Below are positions 1 to 30,038 of a stretch of 33,478 nucleotides of DNA, piece after piece. The position numbers and the translations under genes are program-made. Position 1 is the first letter of the stretch, and every line of letters begins with the position of its first letter. Below the pieces are notes generated by a model. That model was not told the DNA's origin, ran no database searches, and was given only the letters and a program-made list of their open reading frames with translations. Source of the stretch: an uncultured Agathobacter sp. (GTDB taxonomy: Bacteria > Bacillota > Clostridia > Lachnospirales > Lachnospiraceae); NCBI GenBank assembly GCA_945910395.1, contig CAMDYX010000024.1:1-33478 (forward strand). Direction: 5' to 3'.

Positions 1-102
1 CGGTACTAAATTCGCAATAAATTGCTCATTAAGTGCCGACGCTTTTTAAACGTTTTGATTCCAATAGAAAAATTCATTCGGGAACACTTTCCCGAAATGG
101 GA
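1..102 (+). repeat. Repeat A, copy 1 (right half, cut by window edge)
   Basis: This is the right half of the long palindromic repeat seen in full at 8078-8254. It begins in the central CGGTACTAAATTCGC segment, passes through the symmetric centre (GCAATAAATTGC) and the GACGCTTTTTAAACG arm, and ends in the terminal arm GGGAACACTTTCCCGAAATG. The left half would lie before base 1. The end of the element is only about 4 bases from the stop codon of the LysR gene on the other strand. Confidence 0.85.
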
Positions 103-105
103 TTT

Positions 106-990
106 TTACAATGCCGGAAACAATTCAAGGAATCGTTCCGCTGCCGCAGAAAGCGGGAAAACGGTATTGGCAGAGATTGCAATCTGTCTTGATGGAAGGT
201 TTTCCTTTAGCTTTACAACAAACAAATCGTCGGTCTTTTCCGTCAGACAGTAATCCGGGATAAAGGCGATTCCAAGTCCGATTTTTGCAAGGTCAATGAG
301 AAGATCGTTACTGCTAAGCTCAATTTCCGGTACTAAGTCTAACTGCTTCTGAAGGAAGAGCTGGTGCAGGAACTCACTGGTGGTGCTGTTTCGGTCGAGG
401 GTCATCAGGGGATATTTCTGCAGCTCCTCAAAGGAAAGCTCCTTGTCCTTTATTGGAAATGCCTCCGGGTTGGCGATAAAGGCATCCTTAAAATCCAATA
501 CGGTCTTTTGGATATAGCTGCGATTTAGGTAGCCGTTGGGGAAATTGGTAACAATAAGATCTACTTTCCTTTGATTCAACAAATCTACACATTGGATAGA
601 TGTAGCATTGGTTACTTTAATCGGAACATGAGGATATGCTTCATGAAATTTTTTTAAGTAGGGAACGAGAAAATACCGGCAGATGGTATCGCTTGCTCCG
701 ATATGCAGCTGTTCTAAGCCCAGGGGACTTGTGGCAAGAAGCTGGCTTTCTCCTCTGGAAATCAGGTTCATGGCAGGCTCAATGTGTTTAAAGAGTACAT
801 TCCCAGCAGGCGTCAGCGTAACTTTTTTTGTGCTTCGAACAAACAGAGGCTTCCCAAGCTTAGTCTCTAAGGTTTTGATGGACTGGCTGACGGCAGACTG
901 GGAAATGTAAAGCTTTTTGCTGGCCTCCGAGAAGCTTAAGGAGGTAGCCACATAGTAGAAGACTTTATATAGTTCGTAATTGATATCCAT
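106..990 (-). CDS. LysR-family transcriptional regulator
   Basis: The 294-residue protein has the normal length for the LysR family. An N-terminal winged helix-turn-helix covers about residues 1-62, with the recognition region SEASKKLYISQSAVSQSI and the wing segment KPLFVRSTKKVTLTPAG. A type 2 periplasmic-binding-like effector domain follows, from about residue 87 to the end. LysR regulators bind DNA as dimers or tetramers and respond to a small-molecule effector, which cannot be read from the sequence. The gene is divergent from purL across a 320-base gap holding two matching dyads with T-N11-A spacing, so control of purL or of itself is plausible but inferred. The stop codon almost touches repeat A copy 1, and no other terminator is visible within the window. 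Confidence 0.93.
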   Translation of the reverse strand: MDINYELYKVFYYVATSLSFSEASKKLYISQSAVSQSIKTLETKLGKPLFVRSTKKVTLTPAGNVLFKHIEPAMNLISRGESQLLATSPLGLEQLHIGASDTICRYFLVPYLKKFHEAYPHVPIKVTNATSIQCVDLLNQRKVDLIVTNFPNGYLNRSYIQKTVLDFKDAFIANPEAFPIKDKELSFEELQKYPLMTLDRNSTTSEFLHQLFLQKQLDLVPEIELSSNDLLIDLAKIGLGIAFIPDYCLTEKTDDLFVVKLKENLPSRQIAISANTVFPLSAAAERFLELFPAL

Positions 991-1143
991 GGTAAAAATC
1001 CTTTCTAATTGGTTTTCTATAAGAAATCAGTAATTTGCGTCAGTAAAAAGGGGGAGCAGGATTCTATTTTTCTGACATGCAAAAATCCATTCGCCCGTAA
1101 AAGCATGCAACAGATGATCTTAGAAAAATCCGCTAACATTATA

Positions 1144-1158
1144 ATAAGTATCACTTAT
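1144..1158. promoter_or_regulatory. Dyad operator candidate 1 (LysR-purL gap)
   Basis: A perfect inverted repeat, ATAAGT-ATC-ACTTAT. It contains a T-N11-A core (T1145, A1157), the spacing classic for LysR-type binding sites. It lies about 22 bases upstream of the proposed purL -35 element and shares its ATC centre with the second dyad at 1205-1219. Confidence 0.5.
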
Positions 1159-1180
1159 AAATTAGTCAATAAAAATTAAT

Positions 1181-1209
1181 TTAACTTATGAAAAGAAACA
1201 TGGTATACT
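1181..1209 (+). promoter_or_regulatory. purL promoter
   Basis: A -35 element TTAACT (1181-1186) is separated by exactly 17 bases from a -10 element TATACT (1204-1209). A TG one base upstream of the -10 (TGGTATACT) makes it an extended -10. Transcription would begin near 1216, giving a leader of about 95 bases before the purL start at 1311. The -10 region is overlapped by a dyad. Confidence 0.7.
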
Positions 1210-1219
1210 TATCAAGTAT
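1205..1219. promoter_or_regulatory. Dyad operator candidate 2, over the purL -10
   Basis: A perfect inverted repeat, ATACTT-ATC-AAGTAT, again with T-N11-A spacing (T1206, A1218). It covers most of the -10 hexamer and the predicted start site, a position from which a bound regulator would be expected to repress. Its centre is 61 bases from that of the first dyad. Confidence 0.5.
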
Positions 1220-1310
1220 CGGGAAAAATGTATTCTACAAAATGAAGAAGACTGCTTCGACAGGATGTAGAGAAAATAAAAATAAATCAAACAAAATGGA
1301 GGAACCTATC

Positions 1311-4300
1311 ATGAGTAATGTACGCCGCGTATACGTGGAAAAAAAGCCGGATTTTGCTGTAAAAGCGAAAGAGCTTAAGCATGAGATCAAGCACTACCTT
1401 GGAATCACAACCATCGAGGCAGTAAGGGTGCTGATCCGATATGATATTGAGAATATTTCAGAGGAGACTTACAAAAAAGCTCTATTAACTGTATTTTCAG
1501 AACCTCCTGTTGATGATATTTATGAAGAAACCTTTGATGCAAAAAATGCAAGAGTATTTTCTGTAGAATTCTTACCGGGACAGTTCGACCAGAGAGCTGA
1601 TTCCGCAGAACAGTGTGTAAAGCTGTTAAATGAAAACGAAGAACCGATTATCCGCAGTGCAACGACCTATGTGATTGAGGGTAAGATCAGTGATGCCCAG
1701 TTTGAAGCAATCAAGAAGCACTGCATCAATCCGGTTGATTCCCGTGAAACCGGTCTGGAAAAGCCGAATACATTAATTCAGAATTTTGATGATCCGGCAG
1801 ATGTGCTGATCTTCGATGGCTCAAACGGGGATACTGCATTTATCAAGATGCCGGAGAGTGAGCTTAAGAGCTTGTACGATTCCTTGAATCTTGCAATGAC
1901 CTTTAAGGATTTCCTTCATATTCAGAATTACTTTAAGAATGAAGAAAAGCGTAATCCATCTATGACGGAGATTCGCGTGCTTGACACCTATTGGTCCGAT
2001 CACTGCCGTCATACCACATTCTCCACAGAACTTAAGAATATCACCTTTGATGATGGATTCTACCGTGCACCGATGGAAGCAACCTATCAGGATTACCTGG
2101 ATTCCTTTAAAAATCTCTATGAGGGAAGATCTGACAAATTTGTCTGTTTAATGGACCTTGCACTGGTGGGAATGAAGAGACTGAAAAAGGAAGGAAAGCT
2201 TGCGGATCAGGAAGAGTCTGATGAAATCAATGCATGCTCCATCGTTGTTCCGGTTGAAGTGGACGGAGAAGTAGAAGAGTGGCTTGTAAACTTTAAGAAT
2301 GAGACCCATAATCATCCGACGGAAATTGAGCCCTTCGGTGGTGCTGCTACATGCCTCGGAGGAGCAATCCGTGACCCGCTTTCCGGACGTACCTATGTAT
2401 ATCAGGCAATGCGTGTAACGGGTGCTGCTGATCCTACAGTTCCTGTGGCCAAGACCATTGAAGGAAAGCTTCCGCAGAAGAAGCTGGTTCGTGAGGCTGC
2501 GCATGGATACAGCTCTTATGGTAACCAGATCGGACTTGCTACCGGCTATGTAAAAGAGGTTTATCATCCGAACTATGTGGCAAAACGAATGGAAATCGGT
2601 GCTGTTATGGGTGCTGCTCCAAGACGGGCGGTACAGAGATTAAATTCTGATCCGGGTGATAAGATTATTCTTCTTGGCGGACGTACCGGCCGTGACGGAA
2701 TCGGAGGAGCAACCGGATCATCTAAGGCTCACAATACAGAATCTACCGCAGTATGTGGCGCAGAGGTTCAAAAGGGTAATGCACCCACCGAGCGTAAATT
2801 ACAGAGACTTTTCCGCCGTGAGGAGGTCAGCCATATCATTAAGAAATGTAATGATTTTGGTGCCGGCGGTGTATCTGTTGCAATCGGAGAGCTTGCAGCA
2901 GGACTTACCGTTTGGCTGGATAAGGTTCCGAAAAAGTATGCAGGTCTTGACGGAACGGAAATCGCAATTTCCGAGTCCCAGGAGCGTATGGCTGTTGTGG
3001 TTGCGCCGGAGGATGTAGAGCAGTTCATGGCATATGCAAAGGAAGAAAATCTTGAGGCAACTGAGGTGGCTGTGGTAACCGAAGAGCCAAGACTTGTTCT
3101 GGTATGGAGAGGAAAGGAAATTGTAAATATTTCCCGCGCATTCCTCGACACCAACGGAGCACATCAGGAAACCGATGTAGAAGTTGAAATGCCGGAGGAA
3201 AAGGACAACTATTTCGCAAAGATCAATACTCCTGCAGTAGCCGAAAAGGTGGAAGCCGGAGATATGAAGGGCGCATGGCTTGCAGAGCTTTCCGACCTTA
3301 ATGTATGCTCACAAAAGGGACTTGTGGAAATGTTCGACGGCTCCATCGGAGCAGGAAGCGTATATATGCCATACGGTGGAAAATATCAGCTTACCGAGAC
3401 ACAGTCCATGGTAGCGAAGCTTCCGGTATTAAAAGGAAAATGCGATACCGTAACCATGATGTCTTACGGATTTGATCCATACCTTTCCAGCTGGAGTCCA
3501 TACCACGGTTCTATCTATGCGGTACTGGAATCTCTTTCACGTATCGTAACTGCCGGTGGAGATTACAAAAAGATTCGTTTCACATTCCAGGAGTATTTCC
3601 GCAGAATGAGCGAGGATCCGAAACGCTGGAGCCAGCCATTTGCTGCTCTGCTCGGAGCGTACAGCGCACAGATTGGATTTGGACTTCCGTCCATCGGAGG
3701 AAAGGACTCCATGTCCGGAACCTTCAATGAGATCGATGTTCCTCCAACACTGGTTTCCTTTGCAGTGGACGTAGCAAGAGAAAAGGATATCATTACACCG
3801 GAATTAAAAGCAGCCGGAAACCAGCTGGTATTATTTGAAATCGAGAAGGATCAGTATGATCTTCCAAACTACAAGCAGGTTATGAAGCTCTATGATGCCA
3901 TCCATGAAATGATTCAGAAGGGTGCAATTGTTTCCGCATATGCCTTAGACGGAAAAGGACTTGCGGCAGCTGTTTCTAAGATGGCATTCGGAAATAAGCT
4001 TGGTGTAACCATAGAGGAAGAGGTAACCAGCGACACCTTATTTGCTCCGGGCTTTGGAAATATTGTTGCGGAAATTCCGGTTGAGAAGCTTTCGGTTGTA
4101 AGAGCATGTCTAGACGAAGCAGGACTTTGCGGCGTAGAAAGCGTTGTGGGCTTTGTAAATGATACACAGACCATCGAGTGCGATGATATGGTTCTTTCCT
4201 TAGATGAGGCCATTGCAGCCTGGACAGGAAAGCTGGAAGGTGTATTCCACACCAGAAGCCATGAAGATACTTCGGATGTAAAGACAGATGTATTTGACAC

Positions 4301-5132
4301 AAAAAATGTGTATGTATGCAAAAATAAAGTAGCAAAGCCAACCGTATTTATTCCGGTATTCCCCGGAACGAACTGTGAGTACGATAGTGCAAGAGCCTTC
4401 GAGCGTGCCGGTGCAGACACTATCGTAAAAGTATTCAAGAATCTGACCGCAGAAGATATCCGCGATTCCGTGGACGAATTTGTAAAAGCAATCGACCAGT
4501 CACAGATCATTATGTTTCCGGGTGGATTCTCCGCAGGTGATGAACCGGAAGGCTCTGCGAAGTTCTTTGCTACCGCATTTCGGAATGCAAAGATGACAGA
4601 AGCGGTAAACCGCCTGTTAAATGAGCGAGACGGACTTGCACTTGGTATCTGTAACGGATTCCAGGCGCTGATTAAGTTAGGACTTGTTCCTTACGGAGAA
4701 ATCCGTATGCAGGATGAGACCTCACCTACACTTACCTACAACACCATCAACCGTCATATCAGTAAGATGGTGTACACAAAGGTAGTTACCAACAAGAGCC
4801 CATGGCTTGCAGGAGCAGAGCTTGGAAAGGTTTACTGCAATCCGGCATCTCATGGAGAGGGACGCTTTGTAGCACCAAAGGAGTGGCTGGATAAGCTGTT
4901 CGCAAACGGTCAGGTAGCTACCCAGTATGTAAATGAAGCCGGACAGCCTACCATGGATGAAGAGTGGAACGTAAACGGCTCTTACATGGCAATCGAGGGT
5001 ATTACTTCTCCGGACGGACGTGTTCTTGGAAAAATGGCTCACTCAGAGCGCCGGGGACAGTCTGTTGCAATCAACATTTACGGAGAGCAGGATATGAAGA
5101 TTTTCGAGAGCGGAGTAGCCTACTTTAAATAA
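1311..5132 (+). CDS. purL: Phosphoribosylformylglycinamidine synthase, single chain
   Basis: The enzyme converts FGAR, glutamine and ATP to FGAM, the fourth step of de novo purine synthesis. At 1273 residues it is the long form, with synthetase and glutaminase in one chain rather than the separate PurL, PurQ and PurS of Bacillus. The synthetase part shows DTYWSDHCRHTTF near residue 225 and NETHNHPTEIEPFGGAATC near residue 330. The C-terminal class I glutaminase (about residues 1010-1273) has the nucleophile in GICNGFQ (Cys1114) and the His-Glu pair in SHGEGRF (His1181, Glu1183). I chose ATG 1311 because GGAGG (1298-1302) sits 8 bases upstream. An in-frame ATG at 1188 would precede the predicted transcript start and encode 41 residues unlike the family. 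The gene is monocistronic, with its own promoter and terminator. Confidence 0.97.
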   Translation: MSNVRRVYVEKKPDFAVKAKELKHEIKHYLGITTIEAVRVLIRYDIENISEETYKKALLTVFSEPPVDDIYEETFDAKNARVFSVEFLPGQFDQRADSAEQCVKLLNENEEPIIRSATTYVIEGKISDAQFEAIKKHCINPVDSRETGLEKPNTLIQNFDDPADVLIFDGSNGDTAFIKMPESELKSLYDSLNLAMTFKDFLHIQNYFKNEEKRNPSMTEIRVLDTYWSDHCRHTTFSTELKNITFDDGFYRAPMEATYQDYLDSFKNLYEGRSDKFVCLMDLALVGMKRLKKEGKLADQEESDEINACSIVVPVEVDGEVEEWLVNFKNETHNHPTEIEPFGGAATCLGGAIRDPLSGRTYVYQAMRVTGAADPTVPVAKTIEGKLPQKKLVREAAHGYSSYGNQIGLATGYVKEVYHPNYVAKRMEIGAVMGAAPRRAVQRLNSDPGDKIILLGGRTGRDGIGGATGSSKAHNTESTAVCGAEVQKGNAPTERKLQRLFRREEVSHIIKKCNDFGAGGVSVAIGELAAGLTVWLDKVPKKYAGLDGTEIAISESQERMAVVVAPEDVEQFMAYAKEENLEATEVAVVTEEPRLVLVWRGKEIVNISRAFLDTNGAHQETDVEVEMPEEKDNYFAKINTPAVAEKVEAGDMKGAWLAELSDLNVCSQKGLVEMFDGSIGAGSVYMPYGGKYQLTETQSMVAKLPVLKGKCDTVTMMSYGFDPYLSSWSPYHGSIYAVLESLSRIVTAGGDYKKIRFTFQEYFRRMSEDPKRWSQPFAALLGAYSAQIGFGLPSIGGKDSMSGTFNEIDVPPTLVSFAVDVAREKDIITPELKAAGNQLVLFEIEKDQYDLPNYKQVMKLYDAIHEMIQKGAIVSAYALDGKGLAAAVSKMAFGNKLGVTIEEEVTSDTLFAPGFGNIVAEIPVEKLSVVRACLDEAGLCGVESVVGFVNDTQTIECDDMVLSLDEAIAAWTGKLEGVFHTRSHEDTSDVKTDVFDTKNVYVCKNKVAKPTVFIPVFPGTNCEYDSARAFERAGADTIVKVFKNLTAEDIRDSVDEFVKAIDQSQIIMFPGGFSAGDEPEGSAKFFATAFRNAKMTEAVNRLLNERDGLALGICNGFQALIKLGLVPYGEIRMQDETSPTLTYNTINRHISKMVYTKVVTNKSPWLAGAELGKVYCNPASHGEGRFVAPKEWLDKLFANGQVATQYVNEAGQPTMDEEWNVNGSYMAIEGITSPDGRVLGKMAHSERRGQSVAINIYGEQDMKIFESGVAYFK

Positions 5133-5161
5133 GCCGATAATTTTTCATAACAAATTCAAAT

Positions 5162-5194
5162 AAAAAGACATCTGCGAAAAGCAGATGTCTTTTT
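5162..5194 (+). terminator. purL intrinsic terminator
   Basis: A perfect 14-bp stem (AAAAAGACATCTGC paired with GCAGATGTCTTTTT) has a GAAAA loop, and its right arm ends in a T run. It lies 30 bases after the purL stop. The matching A run on the left would allow function in both directions. Confidence 0.9.
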
Positions 5195-5250
5195 GGGCTA
5201 TCATTACCAGTTGAAAAGTCAGAAAATCAAGGATTTCATCTACAATTTTG

Positions 5251-5279
5251 TTTACAGCTTTCTTTTTTTGTCATATGAT
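5251..5279 (+). promoter_or_regulatory. Promoter of the hybrid histidine kinase gene
   Basis: TTTACA (5251-5256) and TATGAT (5274-5279) are separated by 17 bases, downstream of the purL terminator. The predicted leader is about 45 bases. Confidence 0.6.
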
Positions 5280-5329
5280 ATACCTAATGATGTTAGCCTG
5301 CAAATGATAGCATTTACCGAAAGCGACTG

Positions 5330-8071
5330 ATGAGAAAGATTATGGAAAAAATTCAGAAATCCAACCTAATATATCAAATAATGATTGGAGCCATTGTTAT
5401 AGTTGCGTTGCTCTATTTTATTTTAGGGCAATTTTTGCTACCCTCCGAAAGAGACACCTATGAATACCGGGAATTTATAAGCGGCTGGGAACAGCTTGGG
5501 GAAGACTCCACAACGAATCCTGTAGAGATTCCTTACAAGACGGTATTGAGTGCTGGAGAGACTCTGGTGATAAAAGCCACACTTCCCGAGTCCATGCCAC
5601 ATGCTGCCAGTATGATTTACTGGAATGAGTTTGATCAGGTTGAGGTTTTCATTGATGGTAAAATCCGGCTGGAGTATGACAAACGAGGGAATCGTATACG
5701 CAAAAACGTCGGTCCTATCGAATATGTTACCGTTGATCTGGAAGCAACGGATGCAGGAAAAGAAATAATGCTTTATCTGCATGCCGGAGAAAATGCCACC
5801 TATGTTCTGGACAAAATCTATTTGGGCGACGAAAACGGAATCTGGACAACCATTATTGCAGATAATATTTCATCTGCTGTTATTGTGTTTCTGGCAATCG
5901 TATTGGCCATGATGTGCTTTTTTGTCAGTATCTATTTCGAGAAAAAGGTTACAAAGGTCGTACCATTAAAATATATAAGCTTAGGAACGATTCTGACTGC
6001 AATCTGGGTACTTGCAAATTCAAAGATACATCAGTTGATTTTCCCGAATGTATCCGTGATCTGTGACATTGCCTATATTATTCCTTCCTTTGTCGGGCTG
6101 GAGTTTCTGGCATATATGAATCTTTCACAAAAACGAAAATATGTAAAATTGTTTCATTTTGCAGAAATGTATGTTCTGATCGACTGCGTGATTTACAATA
6201 TGCTGGTATTAACAGGAAAATTCTACTATTCCGAAATTTTCCTACCTATGGTAACAGGAATGATACTGGCTATTGCAGTTATTCTTGGAACGATTGTTAT
6301 GGATATCGTAAAGAAACGGATTAAGGAATATATGTTTTCTGCCTTAAGTGTTTCCGTGCTATGTATAGCCGGGGTGATACAGGTAGCTTTGTATATCACG
6401 AAAAGTGCTGCTGCCTATACCGGTATCGTGATCGCCAGTGCACTATTTATCATGATTGTTGTTGCATTGATTGGAACACTAAGTGATATGCTGCAAATAA
6501 CAAGGGATCGTGATGAGGCAATTTTTGCAAGTAAGTCAAAGGCGCAGTTTCTTGCAAACATGTCACATGAGATAAGAACTCCGATTAACGCGGTTCTGGG
6601 AATGAACGAAATTATTTTAAAGACTTCAAAGGAGCCTGAAACCTTAAGCTGTGCCGCAGATATCCAGAGCGCAGGAAAGAGTCTCTTGGCGTTGGTTAAT
6701 GATATTTTGGACTTTTCAAAAATAGAGTCAGGGAAAATGAAAATCATTCCTGTCAATTACGAAATATCATCACTTCTCAATGACTGCTACAACCTTTTGA
6801 ACGCAAGAGCGTCCGAGAAAGGGTTGAAGCTTGAAGTGAAAAATAATCCGAAGATGCCTCATCTGCTATATGGAGATGAGGTCAGAATCCGCCAGATTAT
6901 TGTAAATTTTCTGACAAACGGGATCAAATATACCGAGCAGGGAACCGTTTGTCTCTCGCTTGATTATGAAGAGCGTGATGAAGAAAGCATCCTGCTGAAA
7001 ATATCTGTTTCTGATACAGGAAAAGGAATATCCGAGGAGGACCAGCAAAAACTGTTTTCGTCCTTCCAGCGTGTGGATGAAAAGAATAATCGAAATATTG
7101 AGGGAACCGGTCTTGGACTGTCCATTACAAAGCAGCTGACAGATCTTATGGATGGTGTGATATCTGTGGAGAGCGAGCTGGGAAAAGGCTCCGTATTTTC
7201 TGTGCAGATTCCGCAAGAAGTAAAGAACTGGGAAAAGGCCGGAACACTTCAGATGCAATCCTTGGGCCAATCAAGGCAAATGAGTGTTCATCACATGGAA
7301 TTTACAGCTCCTACGGCCAGAATTCTTGTTGTGGACGACATGGAGATGAACCTAAAAGTAATCAAGGGGCTGCTTAAGGAGACGAGGATTTCGATTGATA
7401 CCTGCACAAACGGAAAGGATACCCTGGTAAAAGTATGTGATACGAAGTACGATGTTATTTTGCTGGATCATATGATGCCGGAGATGGATGGAATAGAAAC
7501 CTTCCGCCGGATGAAGGAGCTGCCGGATAACCGGAATAAGAACACGCCTGTTGTTATGCTGACAGCCAATGCCGTAAGCGGTGCAAGAGATGAATATTTG
7601 GCAGAAGGCTTTGACCAGTATCTGTCAAAACCAATCGAGAGCGTCTCACTTGACAAATTGCTTCGGAAATATCTTGCGGATAAGATCAGTGAGGAAGCTT
7701 CTGATGCCGGAGAACAAAGCACGGACAGCTTAAGTAAACTTTCCTTTTTGAATGTGGAAAAAGGAATGGAATACTGCGGCAACATCAAAGATATTTTTCT
7801 GGAAGCTGTTGAAACATTCGCAAATAGTGATATGCGAAGTGAAATTCAGTCCTATTATGAAGCAAAAGACTGGAAGAATTACCAGATACTTGTCCATGGA
7901 CTGAAGAGCTCCTCTAAAACCATAGGTGCTACAAAGCTTAGTACATTAGCCCAGAAGCTTGAAAATGCAGCAAAGGAAGAGGATGAGGTCATCATACACA
8001 ATGGTCATGAACGCATGATGCATATGTATGTGGAACTTATTGAAAAATTATGTAGTCTTGATTTTAAATAA
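5330..8071 (+). CDS. Membrane hybrid sensor histidine kinase (HK-REC-HPt)
   Basis: A 913-residue tripartite phosphorelay protein. A first membrane segment (about 15-34) is followed by an extracytoplasmic region (about 35-175). A cluster of roughly seven hydrophobic segments (about 178-385) comes next, similar in layout to 7TMR-DISM sensors. The HisKA domain has its phospho-acceptor His413 in NMSHEIRTP. The ATPase domain shows the N box (FLTNGIKYT), DTGKGI and GTGLGLSI. A receiver domain (about 662-785) has Asp713 in LLDHMMPEMDG and the conserved Lys in LSKPI. A C-terminal HPt domain carries His856 in VHGLKSSSKT. No DNA-binding output or partner regulator is adjacent, so phosphate probably passes to a regulator encoded elsewhere. 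The ligand is unknown. Neither ATG 5330 nor ATG 5342 has a strong Shine-Dalgarno site, so the start is uncertain by four codons. Confidence 0.93.
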   Translation: MRKIMEKIQKSNLIYQIMIGAIVIVALLYFILGQFLLPSERDTYEYREFISGWEQLGEDSTTNPVEIPYKTVLSAGETLVIKATLPESMPHAASMIYWNEFDQVEVFIDGKIRLEYDKRGNRIRKNVGPIEYVTVDLEATDAGKEIMLYLHAGENATYVLDKIYLGDENGIWTTIIADNISSAVIVFLAIVLAMMCFFVSIYFEKKVTKVVPLKYISLGTILTAIWVLANSKIHQLIFPNVSVICDIAYIIPSFVGLEFLAYMNLSQKRKYVKLFHFAEMYVLIDCVIYNMLVLTGKFYYSEIFLPMVTGMILAIAVILGTIVMDIVKKRIKEYMFSALSVSVLCIAGVIQVALYITKSAAAYTGIVIASALFIMIVVALIGTLSDMLQITRDRDEAIFASKSKAQFLANMSHEIRTPINAVLGMNEIILKTSKEPETLSCAADIQSAGKSLLALVNDILDFSKIESGKMKIIPVNYEISSLLNDCYNLLNARASEKGLKLEVKNNPKMPHLLYGDEVRIRQIIVNFLTNGIKYTEQGTVCLSLDYEERDEESILLKISVSDTGKGISEEDQQKLFSSFQRVDEKNNRNIEGTGLGLSITKQLTDLMDGVISVESELGKGSVFSVQIPQEVKNWEKAGTLQMQSLGQSRQMSVHHMEFTAPTARILVVDDMEMNLKVIKGLLKETRISIDTCTNGKDTLVKVCDTKYDVILLDHMMPEMDGIETFRRMKELPDNRNKNTPVVMLTANAVSGARDEYLAEGFDQYLSKPIESVSLDKLLRKYLADKISEEASDAGEQSTDSLSKLSFLNVEKGMEYCGNIKDIFLEAVETFANSDMRSEIQSYYEAKDWKNYQILVHGLKSSSKTIGATKLSTLAQKLENAAKEEDEVIIHNGHERMMHMYVELIEKLCSLDFK

Positions 8072-8077
8072 AAATCT

Positions 8078-8254
8078 CCCTTTTCGGAATTGTGTTCCCG
8101 AATGAATTTGCATATTTGAATCAGAACCCACTCTCGTTTGTAAAAAGCGTAACGGTACTAAATTCGCAATGAATTGCTCATTAAGTGCCGACGCTTTTTA
8201 AACGTTCTGATTCAGATAGCAAAATTCATTCTCGGGAACACAATTCCGAAATGG
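8078..8254 (+). repeat. Repeat A, copy 2 (full length reference copy)
   Basis: About 177 bases that form one long imperfect palindrome. The left end, CTTTTCGGAATTGTGTTCCC, matches the reverse complement of the right end almost base for base for about 50 bases. Inner arms GTAAAAAGCG and GACGCTTTTT then pair, and the symmetric centre is GCAATGAATTGC. One asymmetric patch of about 12 bases (CCACTCTCGTTT) interrupts the left arm. It fills the gap between the convergent kinase and pucR genes, starting 7 bases after the kinase stop. No other terminator is seen here, so the transcribed hairpin may end or protect both messages. No reading frame of note lies inside. Confidence 0.92.
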
Positions 8255-8283
8255 AATATAAAAATTACATATTATGTTTTCAC

Positions 8284-10865: not shown

Positions 10866-11048
10866 TACCTATTGAGGAAATGTGTTCCCGAAGGAATCCT
10901 GCTATTTGAATCAGAACCTACTTTCGTTTGTAAAAAGCGTAACGGTACTAAATTCGCAATAAATTGCTCATTAAGTGCCGACGCTTTTTAAACGTTCTGA
11001 TTCAAATAGCAGGATTCTTTCTAAGGAACACATTTCAGAAATGGGATA
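10866..11048 (+). repeat. Repeat A, copy 3 (full length)
   Basis: A full copy with left end ACCTATTGAGGAAATGTGTT and right end GAACACATTTCAGAAATGGG. The stem-proximal sequence AATCCTGCTATTTGAATCAG is paired by its complement on the other arm. Where copies 2 and 4 read AATTTGCATATTTGAATCAG, both arms here carry the same changes (ATCCTGCTATTT), so the arms have changed together. It fills most of the gap between the PHP gene start and gap. It ends about 50 bases before the gap -35, outside the predicted gap transcript. Confidence 0.9.
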
Positions 11049-13508: not shown

Positions 13509-13658
13509 ACGAATAAGACGAGCCAATGAAGCACGTGAGTATGCTTGCATACAGAACGTGCTTCATTGAGTGAGTTAACGAATCCGAGCAAGTAGCAACT
13601 TCGAAGAAGTTCGCGGATTGCGAGGAGTCGTAGGATTGCGGGAGCAATCCGTATTCGT
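13509..13658 (+). ncRNA. Structured intergenic element between pgk and tpiA
   Basis: This gap holds no ORF but folds on paper into a closed multi-branch structure. P1 is ACGAATA (13509-13515) with TATTCGT (13652-13658). P2 is CAATGAAGCACGT (13524-13536) with ACGTGCTTCATTG (13556-13568), a perfect 13-bp stem capped by GTATGC-TT-GCATAC. P3 is AATCCG (13581-13586) with CGGATT (13614-13619), enclosing AACTTC-GAA-GAAGTT (13597-13611). P4 is GGATTGC (13633-13639) with GCAATCC (13644-13650). It lacks a T tract, so it is not a plain terminator, and it ends about 32 bases before the tpiA start. It could be an RNA processing or stability element, a cis-regulatory RNA or a mobile structured repeat. I do not recognise it as a known class. 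Confidence 0.55.
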
Positions 13659-13690: not shown

Positions 13691-14437
13691 ATGGCAAGAA
13701 GAAAAATTGTAGCCGGCAACTGGAAGATGAACATGACTCCAAGCCAGGCTGTAAAATTAGTAGAAGAGTTAAAGCCACTTGTAGTTTCTGACAGCGTTGA
13801 TGTAGTTTACTGCGTACCGGCTATCGATATTGTTCCGGTTGTAGAGGCTGTAAAGGGAACAAACGTACAGATTGGTGCCGAGAATATGTACTTTGAGGAG
13901 AAGGGTGCTTACACCGGAGAAATCTCCGCAGAGATGCTTGTTGACGCAGGGGTTAAGTATGTTGTAATCGGACACTCTGAGAGACGTGATTATTTCAAAG
14001 AGGATGATGCTCTTTTAAACAAGAAGGTAAAGAAGGCAATTGAAGCAGGACTTACACCGATTCTTTGCTGTGGAGAATCTCTTGAGCAGAGAGAAATGGG
14101 TGTTACCCTTGACTGGATCAGACTTCAGATTAAGTCTGACCTTGCCGGAGTTGCAGCAGCAGACGTTGCAAACATGGTAATCGCCTACGAGCCAATCTGG
14201 GCAATCGGAACCGGAAAGACTGCTACTTCTGATCAGGCACAGGAGGTTTGCGGTGCAATTCGTGAGTGCATTAAGGAAATCTATGACGAGGCTACTGCTG
14301 AGGCTGTTCGTATTCAGTATGGCGGATCTGTAAATGCAGGAAATGCGGCAGAGTTATTTGCTAAGCCGGATATCGACGGAGGTCTTGTAGGAGGCGCTTC
14401 CCTTAAGGCTGATTTCGGAAAGATCGTAAATTATTAA
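13691..14437 (+). CDS. tpiA: Triosephosphate isomerase
   Basis: This enzyme interconverts dihydroxyacetone phosphate and glyceraldehyde 3-phosphate. It is 248 residues, the usual length of the TIM barrel. Active-site signatures are AGNWKMN (Lys12), VIGHSERR (catalytic His near 96), [14 protein letters not shown] (catalytic Glu near 168, followed by the flexible loop) and the phosphate-binding [17 protein letters not shown] site precedes the ATG. It follows pgk after the structured intergenic element and probably shares its transcript. The stop codon is followed directly, with no spacer, by repeat A copy 4. Confidence 0.98.
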
Positions 14438-14618: not shown

Positions 14619-14638
14619 ACTATTAAAAAGTAAAAATG

Positions 14639-21983: not shown

Positions 21984-22416
21984 ATTTCGCAAATGTGTTC
22001 CCCTATGAATTGGCATATTTGGAATCTGAAAAGGGATTATCTAAATTGGAATTGTGGAATTTGGCAAGATTTGAGGTGTTGGAACTGCCGTATACCTAAA
22101 ATCCTTGAAAAACAGCCTCAAATTGCTGTTTTTTCGCTCGAATTGTATTATTTTGAGGCGTGAATTTTGCGGTATACCTAATATTTGCAATTTCTTAGGT
22201 ACAGGCTAAAATTGATCTTGCAAAAACATACAATCGACCCCAAAAAAAACTTTAAATGCCGCTTTTTTCATGGATTTTAGGTATTGGAAGAAAATCAACC
22301 GGCGAAATGATACAATTTGCCAATCAAGCATGAAATTCATTCTTAGGAACACAATTCCGAAAAGGGAGAATATTTACTCATTAGGTACCGATGCTTTTTA
22401 ACGTTTGGATTTGAAT
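21984..22416 (+). repeat. Repeat A locus 5: rearranged mosaic between purB and eno
   Basis: This is the main non-coding block in the 494-base purB-eno gap. A degenerate left end of repeat A (TTTCGCAAATGTGTTCCC, 21977 onwards) and a good right end (AATTCATTCTTAGGAACACA at 22335 to AAAAGGGA at 22368) are about 300 bases apart, with the normal centre missing. The space between carries repeat B sequence and a nested hairpin with arms GCCTCAAA (22115) and TTTGAGGC (22152). Beyond the right end, at 22374-22416, is a further fragment of the repeat A centre and right arm (ACTCATTAGGTACCGATGC). I see no credible gene; a 65-codon frame at 21966 has no ribosome site. Confidence 0.7.
22172..22212 (+). 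repeat. Repeat B, copy 1
   Basis: GGTATACCTAATATTTGC followed by AATTTCTTAGGTACAGGCTA aligns well with the perfect palindrome downstream of eno (23783-23825), in the same orientation. Here the palindrome is degraded. Half-copies of the same motif appear at 22090 (GTATACCTAAAATCC) and 22274 (TTTTAGGTATTGG). Confidence 0.6.
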
Positions 22417-22467
22417 AAAAAACAGTCTTCTGGGAAATACTAGTAAAAAATCTCAGGAGGCTTTTTT

Positions 22468-23782: not shown

Positions 23783-23825
23783 CTAGCCTATACCTAAAAT
23801 TTTTCATTTCTTAGGTATAGGCTAG
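23783..23825. repeat. Repeat B, copy 2: perfect palindrome between eno and pilT
   Basis: CTAGCCTATACCTAA (23783-23797) and TTAGGTATAGGCTAG (23811-23825) are perfect 15-bp arms around a 13-base loop. It is the only strong hairpin between the two convergent genes and may work as a terminator in both directions, although it lacks a clear T tract. It matches the degraded copy at 22172-22212 upstream of eno. Confidence 0.75.
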
Positions 23826-23888
23826 AATTTGATGCATGAAAATGGAAAAATCCTCGAAAAAATAGCTTATAAAAGCACTTGTCCAAAA

Positions 23889-24950: not shown

Positions 24951-24964
24951 AGTAAATCCCTTTC

Positions 24965-25447
24965 TTAATTATCTCCCCCAATGAGGTTTAGTGGTTGTTC
25001 TTCAAATGGTGTATCTATGTGAATGGATTGCCATTTTTCTATTTCATAAAAGGTGTCAATTTCAGTTTCCGGATATTTAAGCAATAGTGAAACCTCCAGA
25101 TACTGATCTAAGGTGATGCTTTTGGAAAAAGAAAAAAGCATCCGGCCGTCCTTGGTATCAAAGGTCCCCTCAAAGCGAGCAGAGATTGCTGCTAACGCAG
25201 ATTCGTAATATGTTTCTTCGTCAGGAGAGGCTTCATAGCATTGCAGCAGAAGCCGATCGATATCGGAAAGCTCATCATAGGCCTGCTCTTGTGCCTCATA
25301 GTAGGAAGAATTTCGATCCGCAACCTTTTTGCTGAGCTTAAAATCGGAATTTGCAGTCAACAGAGTCAGTGCCGTAAATGTAAGAATGCAGATGATGATA
25401 AAGGAGAGCAGGATTGTTGAATAACCGAAATTAGAATGTTTATTCAT
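24965..25447 (-). CDS. Single-TM pilus-operon protein, 160 residues
   Basis: I cannot assign a named family with certainty. An N-terminal hydrophobic helix (about 10-32, STILLSFIIICILTFTALTL) is preceded by FGY. A predicted helical region (KLSKKVADRNSSYYEAQEQA) and a probably extracellular C-terminus follow. The layout resembles PilX/GspK-like minor pseudopilins, but there is no recognisable prepilin peptidase site. The start overlaps the previous stop by 8 bases, indicating translational coupling, and pilT follows after 14 bases. Confidence 0.75.
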   Translation of the reverse strand: MNKHSNFGYSTILLSFIIICILTFTALTLLTANSDFKLSKKVADRNSSYYEAQEQAYDELSDIDRLLLQCYEASPDEETYYESALAAISARFEGTFDTKDGRMLFSFSKSITLDQYLEVSLLLKYPETEIDTFYEIEKWQSIHIDTPFEEQPLNLIGGDN

Positions 25448-25898
25448 TTGCGTTACCTCCCAAATCTATCGGAGTAAGTGCACGGTACTGGCATGCAGTA
25501 AGCTGATAGATGATATCCTCTCCTTTTTGACAGCTGACAACAGCCCTTTTCACAGGAGAATCACCTGGTAAAAGGGTGACGGTCATTATAAATACAGCAT
25601 CTTCGGAAGGACAGTCAATAAAGCTTTTATCAAGATAGACCACCAGCTGACCATCTACGAATATTTTATTGTTGTACATCGAATAGATGGATTCGAGGGT
25701 GCCATCGCCTGTCTCAAACATATTTGCCGCATTGGAACAGCAGGTTACCGCGCGCTCCAATTCCGTCGTGGAGTTGGTAAGCTTGTGTGCCTTGACGAAA
25801 AACTGAAGGCAGAAGGATAGCATGACGGAAAAAAGCAGAATGTTCAGCAGGATTTCCATGAGGAAAAGACTGCTCCCGGAGCCCTTTTTGTGCTTCAT
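25440..25898 (-). CDS. Pseudopilin-like protein, 152 residues
   Basis: A short basic leader (MKHKKGSGSS) is followed by a hydrophobic helix starting LFLMEILLNILLFSVML. A glutamate at the fifth position after a possible cleavage point, as in type IV prepilins, supports a minor pseudopilin. The residue before the cleavage point would be Ser, not the usual Gly, so processing is uncertain. Two adjacent cysteines (VTCCSN) and a beta-rich C-terminal half follow. It overlaps the genes on both sides by a few bases within the operon. Confidence 0.75.
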   Translation of the reverse strand: MKHKKGSGSSLFLMEILLNILLFSVMLSFCLQFFVKAHKLTNSTTELERAVTCCSNAANMFETGDGTLESIYSMYNNKIFVDGQLVVYLDKSFIDCPSEDAVFIMTVTLLPGDSPVKRAVVSCQKGEDIIYQLTACQYRALTPIDLGGNANE

Positions 25899-26392
25899 AG
25901 GTCCTCCTTTCTGCTGCTGTGGATTGCAAGATAAACCGGATAGGAGGTGCCATCCGTACCTGTAAATGTGATTTCAAGCAGATCTGTACCGGCAAATGCT
26001 GCAGAAAAATCAGAGACTTCAACAATTTTTTGACCGGCATCCAGAGAAAACACTGCGGATTCTGAAACAAACAATTCCCGCAGCCAGCCCTCGTAATAAT
26101 AGATGTAGGTGGTATAGTTCTTTTCATTTTCCACAGTGGAAATGGCAAGAGCATCTACGCCGGAAAGCGTAGTTACACAAATATCGCAGGAGGAATCATT
26201 TTGCCGGATTTTTTCCGTGATATAGGAGGCTGCGGTGCGAACCTCATAATTGTAATTCATGTTATCCGCAGTTTTCTGATACTGCTTTGCACCAATCAGT
26301 ACTACCAAAAAAGCAGTGGCCGCAAAAACGGTAAAAAGCGCAACAACGAAAATCGTATCAATTTTATGTGCGGATGAATGTAGCTTAATCAT
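25895..26392 (-). CDS. DUF4860-like membrane protein
   Basis: A 165-residue protein with an N-terminal TM helix (IDTIFVVALFTVFAATAFLV) followed by a periplasm-side domain containing ASYITEKIRQND. From memory this pattern fits the DUF4860 family found in Clostridial pilus-like operons; the name needs a profile search. I use ATG 26392, whose ATGATTAA overlaps the upstream stop by 8 bases, a coupled-translation arrangement. An ATG at 26401 is a possible alternative. The 3' end overlaps the next start by 4 bases (ATGA). Confidence 0.75.
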   Translation of the reverse strand: MIKLHSSAHKIDTIFVVALFTVFAATAFLVVLIGAKQYQKTADNMNYNYEVRTAASYITEKIRQNDSSCDICVTTLSGVDALAISTVENEKNYTTYIYYYEGWLRELFVSESAVFSLDAGQKIVEVSDFSAAFAGTDLLEITFTGTDGTSYPVYLAIHSSRKEDL

Positions 26393-26717
26393 ACAATCCA
26401 TCTCTTTCTATAATCATGGTATCAGGCCTTAAGTTAGACCCAATGTATTGATAATCAATAAAATAATGCTCGCTGTCGTAGGTCAGACCATAATTTTCAA
26501 CAAGATAAGACAAGCTGGATGGGTAAGCACCCTCTAAGGCGTAGCATTGTGTGATGCTTCGATCCAGAGCGTTTTGAAGGATTTCTTTTTCACGGGCATC
26601 GTTCGTCCGGGAAACGGAGCCTGCCGCGAAATAGAAAACAATCAGTACCAGAATCAGAAGAATGACCGGCAGAAAGGAAGCAATATTCTTTTTTTCTTTC
26701 TTTGCTTCAAATAACAT
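26385..26717 (-). CDS. Small single-TM pilus-operon protein, 110 residues
   Basis: The N-terminus (MLFEAKKEKKNIASFLPVIL) leads into a hydrophobic helix ending FYFAAGSVSRTND. A region with YALEGAYPSSLSYLVENYGL follows, which resembles the YP-x-L-x-x-L segment after the helix in GspG/GspH-type pseudopilins. No canonical cleavage site is seen. ATG 26717 is chosen because AAGGAGG lies 8 bases upstream; the longer frame from 26753 overlaps the gspF-like gene. The function is unknown beyond likely membership of the apparatus. Confidence 0.75.
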   Translation of the reverse strand: MLFEAKKEKKNIASFLPVILLILVLIVFYFAAGSVSRTNDAREKEILQNALDRSITQCYALEGAYPSSLSYLVENYGLTYDSEHYFIDYQYIGSNLRPDTMIIERDGLYD

Positions 26718-26727
26718 AGGTACCTCC

Positions 26728-27747
26728 TTAGCCGATGCTGGACATAATACCAAGAAGCGGCAACAGGAATGAAATTAAAATCAATCCGATAAACAAGGAA
26801 AGAATAATCACCAGAGTCGGTTCAAGGACAGAGATGAATCGATTCAGCCGTTCCTCCACTTCATTTTCATAAGCGTTCCCAACCTTTTCCATGACCTCAT
26901 CCATGGAACCGGTCTTGTAACCGATGGTAATCATGCTTGAGTAGGTACGTGAAAAAATGCCGGACAGAAGCAGTGCGTTTGAAAAGCTTTCCCCATGGCG
27001 GATATGCTCACGGCATTTGTTGATTTTGGCCTGCATATACGGATTGTCAACCAGTTCATATGCAAGCTCTAAGCCCTGGTCCGTATCCAGTCCGCTGGCA
27101 AGGGCAAGGTACATGCAGTTTGCAAACCTGCTGGCGGCAATGGATAAGGAGATTCCCTTTCCCTGAAACAGTACCCTGGTCAGCCCCGAAAAATAAAGCA
27201 GCAGCGCCACTGCCAGCAGCACCACAAAGATCAAAACAAAAACAATCAGGTATTTATCCAACACGGTGCTGATATTCATAAGAACCCTTGCGGTTCCGGT
27301 AAGCTCGCTGCCCAGCTCCTCGTAGATCTGGGAAAAAACAGGAAGCACCTTGGCGATGAGAACAACAATAACCGCCAGCATCATAACCGTCATAATGAGA
27401 GGATAGGTTACAGCACTTTTGATGCAGGAGCGGATGGATGCCTCCCGCTCATAATACACTGTCAGTGATTTTAATACTTCCTCAAGACGACCGGTCTGTT
27501 CTCCCAGTTCAACCATGTGAACCATATATTTTGGAAAAACACCGGTTCCTTCCAGGGCACTGTGAAGGGTACCGCCGGATTCCATTGGCTTATAGATCCG
27601 GGACAACAGTTCTTTGGTTTCGTCGTCCGGTGCATCATCCATGAGAATGGAAATACCATAATAAGTTGGAAGACCAGCGTCGATTACCATTGCAATCTGC
27701 TGGCAGAAGGCAGAAATTTCTGCATTGGAAAGAGCCCTTTTGCTCAT
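26728..27747 (-). CDS. GspF/PilC-family inner-membrane platform protein
   Basis: A 339-residue polytopic protein with two T2SSF domains (about 5-130 and 205-330). Each begins with a cytoplasmic helical bundle: FCQQIAMVIDAGLP with GIFPKYMVHMVELGEQTG-like sequence (here GVFPKYMV) in the first, and FANCMYLALASGLD with MITIGYKTGSMDEV in the second. TM helices lie at about 112-137, 163-183 and 307-334. GspF/PilC proteins anchor the ATPase and pseudopilins in type II secretion and type IV pili. At 339 residues it lacks the longer N-terminal region of PilC. It starts 13 bases after the transglutaminase gene. Confidence 0.92.
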   Translation of the reverse strand: MSKRALSNAEISAFCQQIAMVIDAGLPTYYGISILMDDAPDDETKELLSRIYKPMESGGTLHSALEGTGVFPKYMVHMVELGEQTGRLEEVLKSLTVYYEREASIRSCIKSAVTYPLIMTVMMLAVIVVLIAKVLPVFSQIYEELGSELTGTARVLMNISTVLDKYLIVFVLIFVVLLAVALLLYFSGLTRVLFQGKGISLSIAASRFANCMYLALASGLDTDQGLELAYELVDNPYMQAKINKCREHIRHGESFSNALLLSGIFSRTYSSMITIGYKTGSMDEVMEKVGNAYENEVEERLNRFISVLEPTLVIILSLFIGLILISFLLPLLGIMSSIG

Positions 27748-27760
27748 CTATGAAAACCTC

Positions 27761-28774
27761 CTAATAAATATACTTCGTAATATAGCCATCCGCTTCGGCG
27801 ATGAATTTTTTCGGACTGGAGCTTGTTGCAGCAAAGGTTGGATCAAGCAGATGCCAGGCACTTCCGTCGAATTCAATGATTCCGTTAATCCATCCGATAT
27901 CCTTTATATATGTACTGATCCATGCGTGATATTCCTCACCTTTATAGCCTACCTCAAGGCGGGTCGGAATGGACTGGCTTCGAAGCATTGTGGCTGTGAC
28001 TGCGGCGTAATCAAAACAGATACCGGTCTGAATCTGATAGATTTCATCCACATCCGGAAGATAGCCGGACTGGACAGTCGCTGCCTTGTCATAATCATAG
28101 GTGTAATTTTCAATCATGTAATTGTATACACTTGCAACCACATCCAAATCATTATTGGCAGGCTTGGCAAGCTCTGCTGCCTTTGCCACCGGAAGTGAGT
28201 TTGCAGTAAAATTCACATACTGGTTTGGATACAAATAGGGTCCGAATTCATTCGTAATGTTGGCGGAAATCATTTCGGACATGGTTGTGGCATATTTATT
28301 TGCTGCGATATCTACGCTTTCAAAAATGCTGATGGTATAGGTTCCGTTTCCAGCAGTTAGAGGAAAAACCTCGTAACCGCCGTGGAGATTGTAGGTATAT
28401 GTAACGCTGTCAGGACCGGTAATCTGAAGCTTTACCTTTTCATTTGTACCTTCGTAGCTTACCATGATATAGCCTTCCGAGGAATTCGATGCATCGATGA
28501 CTGCTACGTCACAGCTGTAGCATTCCGTCCCATCAGCAGAAGGAACCAGCACCTGGGAAGTGTTGTCCCTTAAGCCGTCACTAAGAGGAACAGAAGCGTC
28601 GCTATGATCACCGTTAGAAGCTAAGCTATCAGGCACATCGCCTCCGCTTGAATTGGAAGGAGTAACGGAAGGCATGGAATTTCCGGAAGAACCATCCCCA
28701 CAGGAGCATAATGAAAAACATAGACTAAGCAGAAGAAGCAGACTGGCTGCTTTTTTCATAGTCAAATGTGTCAT
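27761..28774 (-). CDS. Transglutaminase-like lipoprotein
   Basis: A 337-residue exported protein. The N-terminal hydrophobic stretch ends in a lipobox-like LCSC, with Cys25 as the likely lipidated residue, followed by a Ser/Gly/Asn-rich linker. The C-terminal transglutaminase-core domain has a Cys-His-Asp triad: Cys253 in TGICFDYAAV, His283 in EYHAWIST and Asp311 in HLLDPTFA. Domains of this type act as cysteine proteases, amidases or cross-linkers; which applies is unknown. I chose ATG 28774, with AAGGAG 6 bases upstream, over earlier in-frame ATGs. It is the first gene of the pilus-like operon, 13 bases before the gspF-like gene, so a role on the pilus or cell surface is inferred. Confidence 0.87.
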   Translation of the reverse strand: MTHLTMKKAASLLLLLSLCFSLCSCGDGSSGNSMPSVTPSNSSGGDVPDSLASNGDHSDASVPLSDGLRDNTSQVLVPSADGTECYSCDVAVIDASNSSEGYIMVSYEGTNEKVKLQITGPDSVTYTYNLHGGYEVFPLTAGNGTYTISIFESVDIAANKYATTMSEMISANITNEFGPYLYPNQYVNFTANSLPVAKAAELAKPANNDLDVVASVYNYMIENYTYDYDKAATVQSGYLPDVDEIYQIQTGICFDYAAVTATMLRSQSIPTRLEVGYKGEEYHAWISTYIKDIGWINGIIEFDGSAWHLLDPTFAATSSSPKKFIAEADGYITKYIY

Positions 28775-28801
28775 GGCTTTCTCCTTATCCATATCTACTA
28801 T

Positions 28802-28807
28802 ATTATA
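28802..28807 (-). promoter_or_regulatory. -10 element of the pilus-like operon
   Basis: TATAAT on the minus strand, 28 bases before the transglutaminase start. The -35 region at 17-base spacing is weak (TTCCTA). No other promoter is evident within the seven tightly packed genes, so this probably drives the whole operon. Confidence 0.5.
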
Positions 28808-28837
28808 AAGGAAAATGGGAAAAATAGGAATCAAAAA

Positions 28838-28866
28838 TTTGCAAAAAGTGACGGATATTGTATAAT
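28838..28866 (+). promoter_or_regulatory. mscL promoter
   Basis: TTTGCA (28838-28843), 17 bases, TATAAT (28861-28866). Transcription would start near 28873, so the 5' leader of about 168 bases includes the short repeat A copy at 28879-28951. Confidence 0.55.
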
Positions 28867-28878
28867 ATAAAAGAATTT

Positions 28879-28951
28879 ATCCTATTTCGGAAAAGTGTTT
28901 CTGATTCAAATAGCAAAATTCATCCTATAGAACACTTTTCCGAAATGGATT
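28879..28951 (+). repeat. Repeat A, copy 6 (short internal-deletion form)
   Basis: About 73 bases. The left terminal 20 bases (ATCCTATTTCGGAAAAGTGT) are joined directly to the right arm (TCTGATTCAAATAGCAAAAT), ending CACTTTTCCGAAATGGAT. The whole palindromic centre and the rest of the left arm are gone. Outer arms of about 18 bp still pair. TTA lies on both edges and could be a target duplication, but it is too short to trust. Confidence 0.85.
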
Positions 28952-29040
28952 AAGAGCTTTTGCATATTAACTTGTCAGAAGATGAATTCAAAACAGCACA
29001 AAATCGAAAAATGTAAAAAGAAGAAACGGAGAATCAAAAA

Positions 29041-29469
29041 ATGAAAAAATTTATGAAGGAATTTAAAGCATTCATCAGTCGCGGAAATGTGATGGATATG
29101 GCAGTTGGTATTATTATCGGTGGTGCGTTCACCGCAATCGTGAACTCTTTGGTAAATGATATCATTAACCCGATTATCGGATTGTTCGGAGGTATGAACT
29201 TCGACCGGCTGTCGATTCCGCTGAAGGGTGAGGCAACCTTGAATTACGGAAGCTTTATCACAAATATTCTAAACTTCCTAATTATGGCCCTTGTGGTATT
29301 TTTGATTGTAAAAGCAGTAAATGCAGCAGCAAAGAAATTGGAAAAGAAGGAAGAAGAAAAGGCACCGGACACCAAAGAATGTCCGTATTGTATGAGCAAG
29401 ATCGCAATAAAAGCCACCAGATGTCCAAATTGTACCTCAATGTTGGAAGAAATGCAGGAAGAAAAGTAG
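29041..29469 (+). CDS. mscL: Large-conductance mechanosensitive channel with zinc-ribbon tail
   Basis: A membrane channel that opens under hypo-osmotic stress. The MscL core shows the N-terminal helix KKFMKEFKAFISRGNVMDMA, TM1 with VGIIIGGAFTAIVNSLVNDI, a short loop and TM2 near residues 75-97. After the cytoplasmic lysine/glutamate-rich helix the protein continues with CPYC-x9-CPNC near residues 119-134, a rubredoxin-like zinc-ribbon pattern absent from the E. coli protein. Such tails occur in Firmicute homologues; the function is not known to me. GGAG lies about 9 bases upstream of the ATG. Confidence 0.93.
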   Translation: MKKFMKEFKAFISRGNVMDMAVGIIIGGAFTAIVNSLVNDIINPIIGLFGGMNFDRLSIPLKGEATLNYGSFITNILNFLIMALVVFLIVKAVNAAAKKLEKKEEEKAPDTKECPYCMSKIAIKATRCPNCTSMLEEMQEEK

Positions 29470-29476
29470 AAAGTGC

Positions 29477-29505
29477 TTGAAATGCGGCTAATCTTATGCT
29501 ATACT
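29477..29505 (+). promoter_or_regulatory. secG promoter
   Basis: TTGAAA (29477-29482), 17 bases, TATACT (29500-29505), with TGC just before the -10, giving an extended -10. It begins 8 bases after the mscL stop. Confidence 0.7.
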
Positions 29506-29543
29506 TCTTGGAGTTGTTGATTTGAAATTAGGAGGTGTAAATC

Positions 29544-29783
29544 GTGACCGTTCTAAAAACGATTTTAACTGTATTATTCATTATAATCAGTCTTGTAATT
29601 ACAGTAATCATTTTGATGCAGGAAGGCAAGTCTCAGGGACTTGGAGCCATCAGCGGAGCTGCCGACACATACTGGGGCAAGAACAAAGGTCGTTCTATGG
29701 AAGGTATGCTTGTCAAGCTCACTAAAGTTTGTGTTGCCTTATTCCTTATTTTAGCTGTTGTGCTTAATTTAGGAATCTGGTAA
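29544..29783 (+). CDS. secG: SecG subunit of the protein translocase
   Basis: A 79-residue inner-membrane protein that helps SecYE-SecA export. Two TM helices (about 5-24 and 55-77) flank the conserved loop QEGKSQGLGAISGAADTYWG. It starts with GTG; AGGAGG (29530-29535) is 8 bases upstream, which settles the start. secG upstream of rnr and smpB is a common Firmicute order. Confidence 0.94.
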   Translation: MTVLKTILTVLFIIISLVITVIILMQEGKSQGLGAISGAADTYWGKNKGRSMEGMLVKLTKVCVALFLILAVVLNLGIW

Positions 29784-29802
29784 ATCGAAGGAAGGCAAAA
29801 GG

Positions 29803-29852
29803 AAAAGCATCTACACGAGATACTTACAGGAGTGATCGTGGGATGCTTTTTT
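29803..29852 (+). terminator. secG terminator
   Basis: A stem AAAAGCATC with GATGCTTTT encloses a second short stem CACGA with TCGTG, and is followed by TTTATTTT. It separates secG from rnr. Confidence 0.75.
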
Positions 29853-29862
29853 ATTTTCCTGA

Positions 29863-30038
29863 TATCTTGGAAATGTGTTCCTGAGAATGAATTTTGCTAT
29901 TTGAATCGGAACGTTTAAAAAGCGTCGGCACTTAATGAGCAATTCATTGCGAATTTAGTACCGCTACGCTTTTTACAAGCGAGAGCGGGTTCCGATTCAA
30001 ATATGCAAATTCATTTAGGAACACAACTTCGAAAAAAC
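29863..30038 (-). repeat. Repeat A, copy 7 (full length, inverted)
   Basis: A full copy in the opposite orientation to the others. It reads TTGGAAATGTGTTCCTGAGA, then GAATCGGAACGTTTAAAAAG, the centre GCAATTCATTGC, TAGTACCGCTACGCTTTTTA, and ends at GGAACACAACTTCG. It ends about 12 bases before the rnr Shine-Dalgarno site, so a transcript entering rnr would carry the whole hairpin in its leader unless a promoter lies inside the element. Confidence 0.9.

Follow-up and report, generated by a model that had tools for sequence, protein, structure and literature searches.

A MITE-like repeat of an Agathobacter genome and the conserved hairpin inside it

The stretch of DNA analysed in this study (33,478 bp, further referred to as the window) contains several copies of a palindromic repeat, repeat A, which is probably a MITE-like non-autonomous transposon of two modules: ends of a type that we call T1 and a REP-like conserved hairpin between them. 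Its MITE-like nature is of a known kind. The new part would be the hairpin inside the element, which appears to be common to a bacterial family and to occur within unrelated transposon ends.

Repeat A in the window and in its genome

All seven repeat places reported by an earlier, sequence-only reading of the window were recovered, but one and the same element, about 182 bp long, is present only in copies 1-4 and 7; copies 5 and 6 are different units with the same ends. The features are as follows, the strand of each copy being the one that carries the GNRA loop.

1..105, minus strand: copy 1 of repeat A, truncated by the contig start (model positions 4-110)
8068..8075: left 8-bp target duplication of copy 2, ATAAAAAT, on the stop codon of the kinase ORF 5330-8071
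8076..8257, minus strand: copy 2, full element (model match and target duplications)
8128..8140, minus strand: asymmetric patch of copy 2, a GNRA mini-hairpin (from the fold)
8258..8265: right target duplication of copy 2, ATAAAAAT
10866..11048, minus strand: copy 3, full element (model match)
14430..14437: left target duplication of copy 4, ATTATTAA, on the tpiA stop codon
14438..14618, minus strand: copy 4, full element immediately downstream of tpiA (model match)
14619..14626: right target duplication of copy 4, ACTATTAA
21984..22369, no strand given: "copy 5", T1-like ends enclosing a second palindromic repeat, core absent
22374..22440, minus strand: damaged core fragment adjoining "copy 5" (model positions 22-89)
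28879..28951, no strand given: copy 6, ends only, without core
29863..30038, plus strand: copy 7, full element in the opposite orientation (model match)

The duplications of copy 2 are identical in 8 of 8 letters, and the ORF whose stop codon they cover is a histidine kinase gene; those of copy 4 (ATTATTAA and ACTATTAA) agree in 7 of 8 letters. The unpaired patch between the arms was confirmed (8128-8140 in copy 2), as was the paired change ATCCTGC in both arms of copy 3. The fold energy calculated for the four full copies (2, 3, 4 and 7) with short flanks ranges from -75 to -94 kcal/mol. The claim that all copies are intergenic holds for the full copies of the window; across the genome, overlap with a mechanically called, uncurated ORF of at least 90 aa was noted for 7 of 76 full copies. 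The element has no coding capacity of its own, in line with the earlier remark that no copy contains a plausible ORF.

The second palindromic repeat, enclosed in "copy 5", is about 290 bp long (TATACCTAA...TTAGGTAT, window positions 22030-22320). Nine further copies of it with 79-90% identity were found in the sampled contigs; it is present on contigs C1, C2, C3, C15 and C18 of the same genome, and several of its copies directly adjoin copies of repeat A. The Rfam search of the window also identified a Clostridiales-1 RNA at 13509-13658, between genes preceding tpiA, and a tmRNA gene at 32833-33173.

The genome to which the window belongs (G000) comprises 3.14 Mb in 127 contigs and is 89% complete. 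A 37-base pattern allowing up to three mismatches identified 191 cores in it, whereas the reversed control pattern identified none. Hence further copies are not few, and no catalogued RNA family was matched, the opposite outcomes having been named as speaking against a mobile element: Rfam gave no listed match on any core (window at the gathering cut-off; 13 loci up to an E-value of 10). The 778,859 bases read (the window and 40 stretches, 20 of which were picked around known cores) contain 125 elements; 76 of them are full, with matched lengths of 169-187 bp. From C1 and the first 80 kb of C2, which were taken before the core-based choice and hold 31 elements in 385,668 bases, about 250 elements per genome are extrapolated.

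Perfect 8-bp duplications flank 22 of the 76 full copies, compared to 2.6% in controls made of halves of different copies with equal freedom of offset, the best 8-base flank match being scored in each case. Therefore, judging from the sequence, repeat A is a MITE-like element, as had been suspected. The duplications imply element edges of the form N-TCCC...GGGA-N, and terminal inverted repeats are present. The absence of an own ORF, the inverted ends, the 8-bp duplications and the 191 intact cores support the view that it is non-autonomous and mobile.

Bacterial MITEs are non-autonomous derivatives of insertion sequences. Like repeat A, they are short, lack ORFs, have inverted ends and target duplications, and occur in many copies. 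Unlike them, repeat A is in its entirety one near-palindrome, conservation of its interior extends over a bacterial family and over different end types, and no insertion sequence was matched to T1.

One region of C1 (approximately 79,516-296,513, 217 kb) contains no element at all, and its GC content falls to about 0.32. Recent import was our first impression. Eight large ORFs from this region were checked, and three glycosyltransferases and one YfhO protein among them offer an alternative: long surface-glycan operons may explain the gap.

Transposon ends and spread of the hairpin

The T1 end, N-TCCC[A/T]TTTCGGAA[AA/TT]GTGTTCC, occupies in inverted orientation the outer 25-30 bp of repeat A. 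With up to one mismatch allowed, T1 ends were found in 12 of 62 genomes of the genus; with up to three, 18 of 392 genomes from the order have them, and both counts include the window's genome. Elsewhere such ends enclose units roughly 300 to 1500 bp long, which often contain a single gene and are bordered by 8-bp duplications; some T1 ends have no partner inside the fetched stretch. Units resembling single-gene cassettes with inverted CTCCCTTTTCGG ends occur across the family (L352, L356, L361, L366, L370, L351, L053, L037 and L084). The duplications of five units, as identified by eye, are the following.

L352: TAAATTAA
L356: TAAAATTT
L366: ATGTTTTT
L370: AAAAATAA
L351: TTAAATTT

Eight genes located within T1 units or interior to a T1 end were compared to Pfam. 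They encode three GNAT acetyltransferases, one helix-turn-helix protein, one DUF5301 protein, one metallophosphoesterase, one protein with an Imm33 domain and one protein without a match; no transposase was seen among the eight. Since T1 ends elsewhere enclose genes with no transposase seen, the element of the window looks like a T1 unit carrying a hairpin as its cargo.

That the ends are common to a wider family which also flanks genes goes beyond the earlier reading; the insertion sequence with the same ends, for which it had suggested a search, was not found. Models of the IS256, IS66, ISL3 and Y1 transposases gave no matches in the window's genome (89% complete), and no autonomous element sharing T1 ends was found using these four models, the ORFs inside T1 units and a search of 392 genomes of the order with the T1 end. 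At L283 of genome G022, there is an IS256 fragment about 0.5 kb inward from a T1 end; no second end was found there, and we mention it as a lead only.

The same hairpin occurs in other wrappings. Near-identical copies in genome G004 carry the core between ends that begin with GTAACAGTTCAGCC. At L294 of this genome, ATGTTTCG stands on both sides as an 8-bp duplication; the other G004 copies match by eye in 7 of 8 letters or less. In genome G033, an element at L340 contains an IS66-family transposase gene, and one of its ends starts with the 14 letters GTAACAGTTCAGCC, the other agreeing in 13 of 14. G004 itself gave no match to the IS66 model. The G004 version thereby resembles an IS66-family MITE, its ends matching the IS66-type element at L340, whereas the element of the window has unrelated ends. 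The core seems to be carried by at least two unrelated transposon ends, T1 here and an IS66-type end in G004; fast drift of the ends within one lineage could also explain the difference. In genomes G023, G038 and G043, the arms differ among copies and remain complementary, and a conserved side loop (GTAAGAAA / TTTCGTA) lies outside stem P1. The outward flanks of inverted hairpin pairs in G043 (e.g. L318/L319, L320/L321 and L322/L324) look alike by eye, as if a larger palindrome enclosed each pair.

Other genomes were searched with a profile of the core, R1, under strict filters that may miss weak matches. At an E-value of 0.01, matches were found in 17 of 62 genomes of the genus (32 matches in G043, 29 in G033 and 22 in G004); at 1e-4, in 64 of 392 genomes of the order, representing 32 of 173 genera. 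These 64 genomes are among the 131 sampled Lachnospiraceae, whereas none of the 261 genomes from other families of the order had a match. Record titles of the carriers among the matches listed (at least 105 stretches) name Lachnospiraceae, Lachnoclostridium, Falcatimonas, Eubacterium, Eubacteriaceae, Clostridiales and "bacterium". Copy 2 had no match in 50,697 phage and 72,556 plasmid records, the exact core pattern was absent from the viral contigs searched, and no account of these repeats was found in the openly licensed literature. The hairpin was thus found in about half of the sampled Lachnospiraceae genomes and in none of the catalogues searched. The fold-bearing repeat of the earlier reading stands; the family-wide conservation of its interior goes further than what was claimed.

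The two end types and the spread across the family also fit a different view of the hairpin, as a family-wide hitchhiker: a folding module of Lachnospiraceae, no transposon itself, that would have been repeatedly enclosed by unrelated ends and amplified, the folded DNA or RNA aiding the element (e.g. by attracting a host factor) or making insertions at gene ends harmless. We consider it a tentative possibility, on the doubtful side. If true, the structured module would be selfish or symbiotic and would not depend on any single transposase.

Fold, mutation pattern and gene context of the hairpin

The interior of repeat A is a hairpin about 105 nt long with conserved bulges. Stem P1 leads to a junction that bears a GNRA mini-hairpin; then come stem P2, a bulge of 2 nt, a helix containing U.U and tandem G.A pairs, and a variable tip. 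The asymmetric patch, when read on the strand opposite to that used by the earlier reading, is a stem of two base pairs capped by a GNRA tetraloop. This tetraloop is present in 71 of the 76 full copies of the window's genome, and with two closing pairs in 81 of 85 model matches, many of these loci having been found with a pattern that omits the GNRA patch. The remaining four matches comprise two on the wrong strand of copies from the window's genome and two in which the loop is preserved and one closing pair is mismatched. The closing pairs change jointly (AC/GT, GC/GC, GT/AC, CC/GG).

In alignment A1 (16 cores from five genomes), double changes are observed at 20 of 33 pairs, in 72 cells compared to 23.5 in shuffles, and sliding the partners reduces pairing from 91% to 30-39%. 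Alignment A2, for which 84 distinct rows were fitted to the model, shows covariation at 30 of 33 pairs (583 cells vs 185). Hence the stems appear to vary in sequence yet remain paired, and covariation supports the fold. The core itself also seems to be under constraint, as supported by counts of private changes, part of the copies coming from stretches picked by an intact core: per 1000 cells there are 7.1 in the ends, 7.1 in P1 and 3.4 in the core (p = 0.03, ends vs core), and the 25 copies from C1, C2 and the window have 27, 16 and 8, respectively (p = 0.0003 for the ends and 0.07 for P1, each vs core).

If one RNA strand were under selection, G.U mismatches should exceed A.C ones. The arm mismatches do not show that: 113 are G.U and 115 are A.C. 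Splitting the mismatches by transcribed strand yields an effect in the copies of the window's genome (p = 0.0026) and a trend in the relatives (p = 0.12). In the arms of the 76 full copies, C>T changes exceed G>A changes by 82 to 36 on the strand that is transcribed together with the adjacent gene, while A>G and T>C are nearly equal (40 and 37); rare variants lean the same way for both change types (19 to 9 and 23 to 13), neither being significant alone. These polarised changes fit mutation bias, which can explain the transcribed-strand effect; therefore we do not claim it as a sign of a one-strand RNA. The C>T excess is possibly a signature of deamination in palindromic DNA.

In the relatives, 67 elements have both neighbouring genes called: 23 lie in convergent gaps, 19 and 21 between tandem genes of either direction, and 4 in divergent gaps; 12 of the 23 are outside pairs, and one place is counted twice (L161 and L244). 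The window's genome has 72 copies with a mechanically called gene on both sides: 39 lie between tandem genes that run against the GNRA strand and 14 between tandem genes that follow it, while divergent gaps contain 11 and convergent gaps 8. Unlike the relatives, this genome shows no enrichment in convergent gaps (8 of 72), and its tandem bias (39 vs 14) is not present in the relatives. Close pairs (gap below about 1.2 kb) outside the window's genome, some genomes possibly being present twice, include at least 19 in minus-plus and at least 4 in same-strand arrangement, and none in plus-minus among the matches listed. Gene 3' ends are the main location of the hairpin in relatives, where inverted pairs of it are frequent. 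No recurrent partner gene was found near the cores. Five protein clusters are common to at least four core loci, the two largest by eye resembling ABC transporters and histidine kinases.

The strong covariation, the conserved bulges, tandem G.A and the GNRA loops whose closing pairs compensate each other could be taken to mean that the GNRA strand encodes a structured non-coding RNA which serves the cell in its own right, the transposon ends being incidental. We regard this as unlikely, given that the arm mismatches show no overall strand preference, G.U is rare in A2 (48, compared to 53 A.C and 2347 Watson-Crick pairs), the copies of the relatives lie in tandem genes of either direction, and partner genes do not recur. 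An unselected fold is quite improbable too. Arm-from-arm correction in long DNA palindromes (template switching) would mimic compensatory evolution, and the mostly double changes with few one-sided intermediates in A1 and A2, as well as the symmetry of mismatch types, are what it predicts. However, identical asymmetric bulges, GNRA loops and side loops are kept across genera, and the persisting bulges count against correction, because it should erase them; moreover, the core changes less than the ends.

Relation to known systems and biological meaning

REP, BIME and REPIN sequences, as described in PMC3733652, are similar to the hairpin in being palindromic, dispersed, mostly downstream of genes and arranged in close pairs of opposite orientation. 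Repeat A differs from them in being five to ten times longer, with a complex internal fold, in the 8-bp duplications of its MITE versions and in the lack of a Y1 transposase in 8 of 10 carrier genomes. That it is a REP or REPIN element moved by a RAYT (Y1) transposase is thus highly implausible and largely refuted, despite the shared 3'-end location and paired arrangement, by its length (about 180 bp instead of 20-40), its duplications and the occurrence of Y1_Tnp (PF01797) in only 2 of 10 carrier genomes, several of them incomplete, and not in that of the window. Bcr1, for which a table of PMC2267715 gives 167 bp and 31 copies, is likewise a repeated stem-loop of similar size, found in the Bacillus cereus group and called mobile in a title cited there; it belongs to another host group and is likened to repeat A by description, not by sequence.

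For the two-module transposon that we favour, the following course of events is suggested. A DDE-type transposase acting in trans would recognise the T1 ends, and insertion would generate the observed 8-bp duplications of AT-rich targets, often next to stop codons. The second module, the conserved imperfect hairpin present across Lachnospiraceae in other settings, would be a REP-like module of gene 3' ends, either tolerated or retained behind genes, and could fold there in read-through transcripts or as DNA. It would be multiplied when placed between active transposon ends, T1 here and IS66-type in G004. We infer that the hairpin does something for the element or the host.

Reaching about 200 or more copies in a genome, present in about half of the sampled Lachnospiraceae genomes and lacking an Rfam match, the hairpin represents a large annotation gap. 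Its fold in different transposon ends offers a natural experiment on how a passenger structure may benefit a transposon. Moreover, because it adjoins central genes at their 3' end, tpiA in the window, it may affect gene expression in abundant gut and rumen bacteria.
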